Below, one piece after another: positions 60,422 through 64,000 of a stretch of 64,000 bases of DNA. The notes beneath the pieces are model-generated. The model searched no databases. It was not told the DNA's origin and saw nothing but the letters and a program-made list of their open reading frames with translations. The stretch's first letter is position 1; every line of letters starts with the position of its first letter. Source of the stretch: Psychroflexus lacisalsi (lineage in GTDB: Bacteria; Bacteroidota; Bacteroidia; Flavobacteriales; Flavobacteriaceae); assembly GCF_020164495.1 (NCBI RefSeq), contig NZ_JAIQYZ010000003.1, forward strand, positions 62,001 through 126,000, given 5' to 3'. Both the position numbers and the translations under genes were made by a program.

Positions 60422-63400
60422 TTATTTTTCATCTAAAAAAGGCTGAACTTTCTCTTTAATTTCTTCTACAATACTAGGATCTAGCAAAGTAGATACATCA
60501 CCAATTTGATAGCCTTCATTTGAGGATATTTTTCTCATAATTCTACGCATTATTTTTCCACTTCGTGTTTTTGGCAAACCTGATACAAAGTGAATACGAT
60601 CCAACTTGGCAATAGGTCCAATTTTACTCGCAATCAATTGGTTGATCTCTTTACTCAGGTTTTCTTTAACTCTAGATTCACCTTCGTTTTTCAGAATTAC
60701 AAAGCCGGCAAGCGCATTTCCTTTTACATTATGAGGGAAACCTATGATTGCAGATTCTGCCACGGCTGGGTGTTCATTTATGGCATCTTCAATTGGTGCC
60801 GTTCCAAGATTATGACCAGAAACAATAATGACATCATCTACTCTACCCGTTATTCTGTAGTAACCCACCTCATCTCTTAAAGCACCATCACCAGTAAAGT
60901 ACACGTTTTCGAACGCTGAATAATATGTCTCTTTGTACCGTTTATGATTTCCATAAACCGTCCTGGCCATACTCGGCCATGGGTGTTTGATACAAAGTTT
61001 TCCTGAAACTGAATTGCCCTCAATTTCATTTCCTTTATCATCCATCAAAGAAGGCTGAATTCCAGGTAATGGAAGTGTTGCATAAGTAGGTTTTGTAGGC
61101 GTTACAAACGGAATGGGAGAAATCATGATTCCACCAGTTTCCGTTTGCCACCAAGTATCTACAATAGGGCATTTTTTCTTTCCAATATTTTCGTTATACC
61201 AGTTCCAGGCTTCTTCATTAATGGGTTCTCCAACACTTCCAAGAACTTTCAAGGAAGATAAATCGTACTTGTTGACGAACTCTATATCCTGTTTAGCCAA
61301 AGCCCTAATCGCAGTTGGTGCTGTATAAAATTGATTTACTTTATACTTTTCAACAATATCCCAAAATCTTCCAAAATCTGGGTAAGAGGGAACACCTTCA
61401 AACATCAATGTGGTAGCACCATTCAAAAGTGGTCCGTAGACAATGTAAGAATGTCCGGTAATCCAGCCAATATCAGCAGTACACCAATACACGTCATTCT
61501 CCTGATATTGAAATACATTTTTAAATGAGAATGCGGTATACACCATATAGCCAGCGGTAGTATGCACCATACCCTTTGGTGTTCCCGTGGAACCAGAAGT
61601 GTACAGAATGAAAAGCATATCTTCAGCGTCCATGATTTCGGCTTCGCATTTATCGTCGACTTGTTTTAATTCTTCATGTAGCCATACATCACGACCTTTT
61701 ACCATCTCAATTTTTGAAAAGGTTCGTTTAGCCACCAAAACACATTCTACTGAAGGTGTATTTTCTAGAGCTTCATTCACAATACCTTTTAAATCAATGC
61801 TTTTGGCACCTCTATAAGATCCGTCCGAAGTAATGACCATTTTACAATCAGAATCGTTAATTCTTGAAGACAGGGCTGAAGCAGAAAATCCTGCAAAAAC
61901 TACAGAATGTACAGCTCCTATTCTTGCACAAGCTAAAGTAGCAATGGCCAATTCTGGAATCATTGGAAGGTAAATACAAACCCGATCTCCTTTTTGGATT
62001 CCATTTTTCTTCAAAACATTCGCCATTTTGTTGACGCGTTTTGATAAGTCGTTATAACTTATATGTAGCGCTTTTTCCTGAGGATTATTAGGTTCCCAAA
62101 TAATAGCAGTCTTGTTCCCTCTGGTTTTCAGATGCCTGTCTACAGCATTTTCAGTGATATTAAGCTGAGCGCCTTCAAACCAGCTAACCTCAGCTTTTTC
62201 AGGGTCCCATTTCAAAACTGAATTCCATTTTCGCTTCCACTCAAAATTACGTTCTGCGATGGTAGCCCAGAAATTCTCTGGATCATTTTGAGAAATTCTG
62301 TAGACATCCATATACTTGGCAAGCGAATCAATGTTATAATAACTCTTGGTCAGTGCTTTTAAAGACTGAGTCACTTGATCTTTGTTTTTACTAAAAGCTC
62401 CGATTCTCTCATGACTAAAGGTTTCAATAATCTCACTAATGACCATGGGGTCTTCAATAGTGGAAGGAAGTTTATAAGGCTGTCCTGCAACCAGTTTCCT
62501 TAAAGTCCTTCTTAAAGTTTTACCACTTCTAGTTTTAGGTAGACGTTTAACAATGACCACATTTTTTAAAGCCGCAATAGCTCCGATTTTATCTCTTACC
62601 AACTGAATTATTTCAGTCTGCATTTTATAAGATTCGTAGCCTTCTTCACCTGTTTTTGGGACAACAATAGCTAATGGAATTTCTCCTTTCAGCTCGTCCT
62701 GCAATCCAACTACGGCGCATTCTGCAACGGATGGATGTTGAGAAACTACCTCCTCCAGAGCAGCTGTAGAAAGCCGATGACCGGAAACATTAATGACGTC
62801 ATCTATTCTACCGGTGATATAGACATACCCCTCTTCGTCAATATAGCCACCATCGCCGGAAAAGTAGAACCCTGGAAATTTACTTAAGTATCCGTTTTTA
62901 TAGCGCTCGTGGTTATTCCATAGCGTTTGCATAAAACCTGGAGGAAGCGGCAACCTTGAGCAAATATAACCTTCAGTATTTGCTGGCAACATTTCACCAT
63001 CTTCAGAAAGAATTGCCAGATCGTATCCAGGAACAGCCTTTCCTGCAGAACCAGGTTTAACCGGCTGAGGATCTAGTCCCATATAATTGGCTACAATAGA
63101 CCAACCCGATTCGGTCTGCCACCAATGGTCGATGACAGGGATTTTTAAGTGATCTTCGGCCCATTTTAATGTCGTTTCATCACAACGCTCACCGGCCAGA
63201 AACTGATATTTCAAAGAAGAGATATCATGTTTTTTTATGAATTCACCATTGGGGTCTTCCTTTTTGATGGCTCTGAAGGCCGTTGGAGCAGTGAACATCA
63301 CATTCACTTTATGATCTTCTATAACTCTCCAGAAAGCTCCCGCATCTGGAGTTTTGATAGGCTTTCCTTCATAAATTATGGTGGTATTCCGATGAATCAT

Positions 63401-64000
63401 AGGAGCGTAAACGATATAGCTATGGCCAACTACCCAACCAACATCAGATGCTGCCCAGAATACATCTCCGGGTTGTGTTCCGTAGATATTCTTCATGGAA
63501 TATTTCAGTCCGACAGCATATCCCCCTGTATCTCTTACCACTCCTTTAGGTGACCCTGTGGTACCGGAAGTATAAAGTATATAGGAAGGATCTTTAGATT
63601 TTAAAGCGATTGCTTCTGCTGGTTTGGCTTTTTCCAGCAATTCTGAATAATCGATATCATAGGATTTCTCCTCAAATTCTACCCCAAGCTTTCTATTGAA
63701 AACTACAACTTTTTCAACCTTATGTTTAGCTTTTTCAATAGCCTCGTCCACCATGGGTTTGTAAGCTATAAGCCGATCGACTTCAATTCCTGAGGTTGCT
63801 GTAATAATTACTTTTGGTTTGGCATCGTCTATTCTCATGGCCAATTCATCTGGAGCAAAACCTCCAAAAACTACTGAATGAATAGCGCCGATCCTCGCAC
63901 AAGCCAACATGCTGAACACAGAATGAGAAATCATAGGCATATAAATAATGACCCGATCCCCTTTTTCTACACCCAACTCTTTAAGGCCTCCAGCTAGTTT
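60422..64000 (-). CDS. Tandem fusion: PrpE/ACSS3-like acyl-CoA synthetase + acetyl-CoA synthetase (runs off right edge)
   Basis: One uninterrupted frame of 1192 codons within the window, open at the right edge (first residues KLAGGLKELGVEKGDR). The first unit (to about residue 520) has YTSGTTGSPKGVV, DHWWQTESGW, YFSGDGGYIDEEG and PKTRSGKTLRRTLRKL, and ends like propionyl-CoA synthetases. The second (about 550-1192, some 640 aa, a full-length acetyl-CoA synthetase) starts in YYNIDSLAKYMDVYR...ENFW and has LYTSGSTGTPKGMVH, TWWQTETGG, YFTGDGALRDEVG and PKTRSGKIMRRIMRKI. Both units are complete in the motifs seen, so both should make acyl-CoA from acid, ATP and CoA. The join lies near 62330-62420. 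An internal ATG at 62311 could give an ACS-only product of about 629 aa. The N-terminus of unit one is outside the window. Confidence 0.88.
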   Translation of the reverse strand, partial: KLAGGLKELGVEKGDRVIIYMPMISHSVFSMLACARIGAIHSVVFGGFAPDELAMRIDDAKPKVIITATSGIEVDRLIAYKPMVDEAIEKAKHKVEKVVVFNRKLGVEFEEKSYDIDYSELLEKAKPAEAIALKSKDPSYILYTSGTTGSPKGVVRDTGGYAVGLKYSMKNIYGTQPGDVFWAASDVGWVVGHSYIVYAPMIHRNTTIIYEGKPIKTPDAGAFWRVIEDHKVNVMFTAPTAFRAIKKEDPNGEFIKKHDISSLKYQFLAGERCDETTLKWAEDHLKIPVIDHWWQTESGWSIVANYMGLDPQPVKPGSAGKAVPGYDLAILSEDGEMLPANTEGYICSRLPLPPGFMQTLWNNHERYKNGYLSKFPGFYFSGDGGYIDEEGYVYITGRIDDVINVSGHRLSTAALEEVVSQHPSVAECAVVGLQDELKGEIPLAIVVPKTGEEGYESYKMQTEIIQLVRDKIGAIAALKNVVIVKRLPKTRSGKTLRRTLRKLVAGQPYKLPSTIEDPMVISEIIETFSHERIGAFSKNKDQVTQSLKALTKSYYNIDSLAKYMDVYRISQNDPENFWATIAERNFEWKRKWNSVLKWDPEKAEVSWFEGAQLNITENAVDRHLKTRGNKTAIIWEPNNPQEKALHISYNDLSKRVNKMANVLKKNGIQKGDRVCIYLPMIPELAIATLACARIGAVHSVVFAGFSASALSSRINDSDCKMVITSDGSYRGAKSIDLKGIVNEALENTPSVECVLVAKRTFSKIEMVKGRDVWLHEELKQVDDKCEAEIMDAEDMLFILYTSGSTGTPKGMVHTTAGYMVYTAFSFKNVFQYQENDVYWCTADIGWITGHSYIVYGPLLNGATTLMFEGVPSYPDFGRFWDIVEKYKVNQFYTAPTAIRALAKQDIEFVNKYDLSSLKVLGSVGEPINEEAWNWYNENIGKKKCPIVDTWWQTETGGIMISPIPFVTPTKPTYATLPLPGIQPSLMDDKGNEIEGNSVSGKLCIKHPWPSMARTVYGNHKRYKETYYSAFENVYFTGDGALRDEVGYYRITGRVDDVIIVSGHNLGTAPIEDAINEHPAVAESAIIGFPHNVKGNALAGFVILKNEGESRVKENLSKEINQLIASKIGPIAKLDRIHFVSGLPKTRSGKIMRRIMRKISSNEGYQIGDVSTLLDPSIVEEIKEKVQPFLDEK

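Follow-up and report, generated by a model that had tools for sequence, protein, structure and literature searches.

A tandem PrpE–Acs synthetase gene in Psychroflexus lacisalsi and its relatives

Acs (acetate–CoA ligase) and PrpE (propionate–CoA ligase) are textbook single-unit enzymes. In a 64,000-nucleotide stretch of the Psychroflexus lacisalsi genome (the window; positions 62,001 to 126,000 of contig NZ_JAIQYZ010000003.1, assembly GCF_020164495.1), one reading frame on the minus strand at the right end carries both, which raises the question of whether this is a genuine gene, what its product would do and whether the joining of the two units matters. The fusion is real and conserved, and its bifunctionality is probable from sequence features. 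Our preferred reading, to which we give a probability of about 0.8, is a single bifunctional short-chain acyl-CoA synthetase of 1287 residues in which PrpE is tethered to Acs: the N-terminal PrpE would activate propionate, the C-terminal Acs would activate acetate, and a short linker would join the two. That both units are active on the substrates so assigned, that the chain stays uncleaved and that tethering is advantageous are points that we infer.

The fused frame and its two units

Reading of open reading frames (ORFs) in the window gives a single frame from the right edge to a stop at 60422. A first-pass annotation had proposed a genuine, non-decayed, in-frame PrpE–Acs fusion whose true start would be found by extension to the right. 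Contig sequence beyond the window puts the initiating ATG at 64285 in window numbering, 285 bases past the edge, and the whole gene encodes 1287 aa, of which 95 lie outside the window. The best NCBIfam stretches assign residues 1–622 to PrpE and 647–1281 to Acs. Unit 1 is full-length to the PrpE models (residues 1–622 against 2–626 of 629 in PRK10524 and 1–625 of 628 in TIGR02316), as is unit 2 to the AcsA models (654–1278 against 3–628 of 629 in TIGR02188; 647–1281 against 19–646 of 649 in PRK00174), and Pfam AMP-binding, AMP-binding_C and ACAS_N each match two stretches. Full ORF, unit models and intact motifs thus bear the proposal out. Each unit is like its family over its whole length with motifs intact; the differences are that PrpE, usually free-standing and about 630 aa long, is here fused ahead of Acs, and that AcsA, which usually has its own start, is preceded in Psychroflexus by linker and PrpE. 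Neither unit has a start and stop of its own in this single 1287-aa frame. Of 5 candidates in the source genome, one matches the fusion at E ≤ 1e-100, and there is therefore no second close Acs or PrpE. The linker, one of two types (I and II) found among fused genes, lies within the interval 62330–62420 in which the join had been predicted. The features are as follows.

62420–64000, minus strand: unit 1, PrpE, residues 96–622 (residues 1–95 lie beyond the edge); from frame and NCBIfam
62348–62419, minus strand: type I linker, residues 623–646 (24 residues); sequence conserved in fused relatives
60425–62347, minus strand: unit 2, Acs, residues 647–1287; from NCBIfam
60422–60424, minus strand: TAA stop of the fusion; from sequence
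62309–62311, minus strand: internal ATG; Met in 15 of the 25 fused type I joins compared, Ile in the other 10
63542–63574, minus strand: unit 1 P-loop YTSGTTGSPKG, residues 238–248; from motif check
63101–63127, minus strand: unit 1 HWWQTESGW, residues 387–395; from motif check
62519–62521, minus strand: unit 1 K589 of PKTRSGK; from motif check
61571–61603, minus strand: unit 2 P-loop YTSGSTGTPKG; from motif check
61130–61156, minus strand: unit 2 TWWQTETGG; from motif check
60554–60556, minus strand: unit 2 lysine of PKTRSGK, residue 1244; from motif check

Unit 1 retains the P-loop, WWQTE, GD, hinge DD and RSGK lysine, and the catalytic motifs and RSGK lysine of unit 2 are intact and do not vary across alignment A2, which comprises 20 fused proteins. 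By family, we take K589 to be the catalytic, acylatable lysine of unit 1 and residue 1244 the catalytic, acetylatable lysine of unit 2. Across a sample of 90 PrpE and 148 Acs units, in which some loci are counted twice, Acs units keep their motifs wherever covered; PrpE deviates at L066 and by one residue in L146, and it also deviates at L166, a locus added afterwards; L066 and L166 are discussed below. Regarding substrate, Ala at the position of Acs residue 386 presumably favours propionate (the V386A effect). The unit 1 residue aligned to this position (V386A structure 2p2b) is Ala and is invariant in live PrpE rows, which fits propionate use by unit 1; the corresponding residue of unit 2 is Val. 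The bifunctional enzyme that had been suggested for this locus is made probable by these residues together with the intact motifs.

The internal ATG had been put forward as a possible start for free Acs. Although the codon exists and the linker is modelled at low confidence, Met gives way to Ile in 10 of the 25 distinct type I joins, which does not support a conserved start for free Acs at this codon. We consider it improbable that an internal start or a protease yields PrpE and Acs as two proteins from the fusion.

Structures were predicted for residues 96–1287 of the window protein and for the fusion at L166 minus its first 87 residues. Mean pLDDT (predicted local distance difference test) was 75.1 and 74.5, and pTM (predicted template modelling score) 0.54 and 0.49, respectively; in both models the linker is a helix with pLDDT below 50. 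In a fold search with the window model, the 50 rows listed were all ordinary Acs structures, with a template modelling score of 0.88 to the target. The best solved chains were PDB 5gxd for unit 1 and Salmonella enterica Acs (PDB 1pg4/2p20) for unit 2. Neither prediction defines a fixed arrangement of the halves, such as the heterodimer-like unit suggested in the first-pass annotation.

Distribution and origin of the join

Within the genus, the join is open in 20 of 27 Psychroflexus genomes, as complete fused frames in 16 and as frames cut by contig ends in 4; 7 are not fused. The complete fusions of other Psychroflexus are 71–98% identical to the window protein. Named relatives are mostly Psychroflexus, the closest being P. 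longus with 97% identity over the join region. Relatives with a stop exactly at the join would have spoken for two genes, and what we find is the open join in these 20 genomes. The same observation, named strains included, rules out a sequencing or assembly error at the join, to which we assign a negligible chance. The seven exceptions differ among themselves. In G004, the stretch from the helix-turn-helix (HTH) gene through PrpE is missing between bshB and acs, and a free Acs has a different start and retains the linker. G020 also has a free Acs with linker, with none of the genes of this operon beside it. Four genomes (G010, G011, G014 and G023, the last 86% complete in 310 contigs) have a linker-less Acs and no PrpE match, and in G040 prpE and acs are adjacent but separate, 47 nt apart and in another frame. 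In a 37-row Acs tree, Psychroflexus genomes whose Acs has no linker are placed outside the type I clade.

Outside the genus, fusions were sought in overlapping genome samples within Bacteroidota; complete fused frames were counted among the matches listed, so that fusions cut by contig ends can be missed. The family survey (397 genomes) gave at least six fused genomes (G044, G278, G429, G309, G410, G244) besides three Psychroflexus, the order survey (196 genomes) at least two Psychroflexus plus G036 and G436, and the phylum survey (247 genomes) fusions in two Psychroflexus only. The type I join also occurs in Brumimicrobium mesophilum (L059), in two Flavobacteriaceae (L063, L067), in a Flavobacteriia metagenome-assembled genome (MAG; L062) and in a Capnocytophaga MAG (L066). 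Several candidates were rejected. By six-frame ORFs, frames of about 1280 residues with internal stops in G069, G056, G104, G037, G539, G501 and G617 are separate same-frame genes, as are the apparent fusions with stops inside in G934 and G924; frames of 1320–1497 aa in G583, G514, G588 and G473 turned out to be two genes each. At one separate locus (L131:3959–5918, in G501), the acs gene beside prpE is broken into two overlapping frames, with the appearance of a frameshift.

Two linker types suggest more than one origin, and trees were used to count changes. In the 54-row PrpE tree, the 24 type I rows and the 8 type II rows each occupy one side of a branch (support 99 and 99), and fused versus separate state takes 2 changes. 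The Acs tree covers 85 of 133 rows, with about a third of the single-Acs rows retained. In it, type I and six rows of free Acs with linker form one clade (98), the free rows accounting for 4 changes. The slower 37-row Acs tree concurs, with 98/96 for type I plus free Acs with linker and 100/100 for type II. Change counts of this kind carry no direction, gain or loss; read most simply, they give two fusion events followed by four losses of the PrpE half in type I. Brumimicrobium is placed among Psychroflexus in the 85-row Acs tree, which suggests that its fusion may have been acquired by horizontal transfer.

As to how the fusions arose, 13 of 23 distinct separate prpE–acs pairs lie in one frame, and 6 of these (L039, L141, L142, L143, L185, L186) have a stop-to-start distance of 6–21 nt; the most upstream in-frame ATG was taken as start, and gaps may be underestimated. 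Because 6 of 23 pairs are so placed, loss of the stop codon is a likely route: most likely, an ancestral in-frame prpE–acs pair would have lost the prpE stop and become the fusion. Such a loss in a tight in-frame operon may have been a neutral accident without benefit, a possibility that we set only a little short of even odds. The closely spaced same-frame pairs, the two fusions and the several PrpE-less lineages all agree with an accident, but 20 of 27 Psychroflexus, and other lineages too, have kept the type I join, and free Acs proteins that lack PrpE still carry the linker.

Fused proteins with a dead PrpE half

Two fusions of the Capnocytophaga group bear on the role of the PrpE half. 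In L066 (genome G819, the Capnocytophaga MAG), the P-loop, WWQTE, GD and RSGK lysine of PrpE are lost; the remnant of WWQTE is the W and the final E, and the hinge GRVDD is still present. In L166 (G843, a relative), the fused protein is 68% identical to that of L066 with the same motif losses, and the hinge is altered. The 52 live PrpE rows have 184 invariant positions; both dead halves retain 89 of these and both have lost 68, 31 of the latter having changed to the identical residue. Retention is 19 of 66 inside the eight motifs versus 70 of 118 outside (Fisher p 1e-4), and in the Acs half both of these proteins retain 216 of 218 invariants. Identity between the dead halves is 52.6%, with pN 0.306, pS 0.832 (synonymous sites saturated) and dN 0.394 (pN and pS, proportions of nonsynonymous and synonymous differences; dN, nonsynonymous divergence). 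Acs dN between the two is 0.128, giving a dead-PrpE/Acs ratio of 3.1; in six live pairs the PrpE/Acs ratio is 0.9 to 1.45. The PrpE half was probably already dead before the L066 and L166 lineages split, and it is probably under amino-acid constraint weaker than that on live PrpE, which folding alone could explain. The dead half of L166 is modelled with similar strand/helix order and similar confidence. A single sequence in G819 matches the fusion at E ≤ 1e-60, and three relatives (G830, G832, G833) carry free Acs with linker in place of the fusion. At L066:5936–6145 the opening bases of the fused gene are repeated on both sides of a run of N, which has the appearance of a scaffolding gap in this MAG.

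Dead halves suggest a further role for the PrpE domain, as a structural support or a regulator of Acs. PrpE would then stabilise Acs or set its oligomeric state or regulation, as its sole job in the two Capnocytophaga-type genomes; this would add to the preferred bifunctional enzyme, not exclude it, and we advance it tentatively. Both proteins keep the fusion despite their lost motifs, PrpE invariants have gone in bulk while those of Acs are nearly all kept, and the halves remain 52.6% identical even though synonymous sites are saturated. Yet G830, G832 and G833 do without a PrpE half, stops upstream of Acs would be selected against anyway so that the constraint may reflect folding alone, GRVDD persists in L066, and the case comprises two genomes, one of them a MAG. 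The neutral alternative would make the dead halves passengers, held to an open frame and a folding chain, and draws support from a dead half that changes about three times faster than its own Acs, where live ratios are about 0.9–1.45.

Searches for the methylmalonyl-CoA mutase family gave a match in 22 of 22 Psychroflexus genomes and in 5 of 5 others with type I join or linker (G820–G824), and in 0 of 9 Capnocytophaga-group genomes, the completeness of these nine not being given. A slightly more doubtful extension is that fusion gave rise to a pseudo-synthetase module: catalysis would have been lost in the two Capnocytophaga-type genomes in which no mutase was found, a structural or regulatory role would have been kept, and the live half in Psychroflexus would already modulate Acs.

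Against the tethered bifunctional enzyme, four observations must be set. Within the type I clade, several lineages lack the PrpE half, and tethering is therefore dispensable. Six PrpE-less Psychroflexus (G004, G010, G011, G014, G020, G023) retain the mutase, and PrpE therefore does not track the mutase pathway within the genus. Seventeen of the 23 separate pairs, including the only Psychroflexus pair (G040), are in other frames or have larger gaps, and neither model, by its pTM value, fixes the relative placement of the halves.

Operon setting and relation to known systems

The fusion is the last gene of an operon-like same-strand run, preceded in order by genes for an IS1-transposase-like zinc/HTH protein (IS, insertion sequence), a porin-like protein, a symporter, a histidine kinase and a response regulator; 3′ of it lie a converging M28 peptidase gene and then pheT. 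The symporter belongs to the VC_2705 family of sodium/solute symporters, above the model cut-off; the porin-like protein matches NCBIfam porin_ExtI below cut-off and has no Pfam match. HisKA and HATPase_c are clear in the kinase, whose N-terminal SSF match (E 1.1e-4) scores 21.7 bits against a Pfam cut-off of 22.8. The regulator (L003:10298–10672, outside the window; 124 aa) is a bare receiver domain, with no DNA-binding domain in the Pfam search. This locus probably combines genes for taking up, sensing and activating short-chain acids.

At the head of the run, a 137-aa protein (L003:17040–17453, outside the window) resembles the N-terminal zinc/HTH part of IS1 transposase, below the model cut-off; its relatives hold the same position in several other loci, and it may be a transposase-derived regulator. 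The porin-like protein is 53–56% identical to that of the window genome in P. curvus, P. sediminis and P. tropicus (L045, L046, L047) and 83–95% in P. montanilacus and P. longus (L044, L048); the remaining operon genes at L044–L048 are about 76–98% identical, and the porin-like gene may have been swapped by recombination. In P. tropicus (L047:12076–14856), about 2.5 kb is added between fusion and M28 peptidase relative to other Psychroflexus. In two other Flavobacteriaceae (L133 in G348, L134 in G043), acs lies directly behind the symporter gene, and the stretch retrieved shows neither a kinase or regulator match nor one to prpE.

CrbS/R-type acetate regulation is similar in that a regulator and a kinase that is symporter-like in part stand next to acs. 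It differs in that its regulator has a DNA-binding output, whereas the Psychroflexus regulator is receiver-only and the symporter match of the kinase falls just under the cut-off. A term search of the CrbS/R paper PMC5436829 gave no occurrence of 'Bacteroid', 'propionate' or 'prpE'.

The Chloroflexus propionyl-CoA synthase is a large fusion of an Acs-like unit with hydratase and reductase and is not known to include a second synthetase. DIP2 of opisthokonts (PMC9342972) has tandem fatty-acyl-AMP-ligase-like domains, the second of which, FLD2, has degenerate motifs and a suggested non-catalytic role. DIP2 and the PrpE–Acs fusion are alike in having two adenylate-forming units per chain, one of which may lose its motifs as in L066 and L166; DIP2 is a eukaryotic duplication of one domain with a degenerate second unit, whereas the bacterial fusion unites two different enzymes and is degenerate in its first unit, and that in only two of the genomes seen. 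Searches of the open-licence PMC literature listed no report of a PrpE–Acs fusion by title or abstract, which is weak evidence of novelty. The phrase 'bifunctional acetyl-CoA synthetase' refers in PMC2702500 to the CO-dehydrogenase enzyme and in PMC11212195 to a table label for acs. As far as this search reaches, the fusion is unreported, and it is built from known enzymes.

If the pseudo-synthetase reading is true, the family comprises a separate pair, a live fusion, a dead-half fusion and free Acs with linker. The tandem seems to have formed twice, with one half lost or dead in some lineages, and offers a natural series on whether tethering is adaptive or neutral. The same series bears on whether an adenylate-forming domain can acquire a non-catalytic role, as suggested for FLD2 of DIP2 (PMC9342972), and the lineage with the dead half is the part that merits following.

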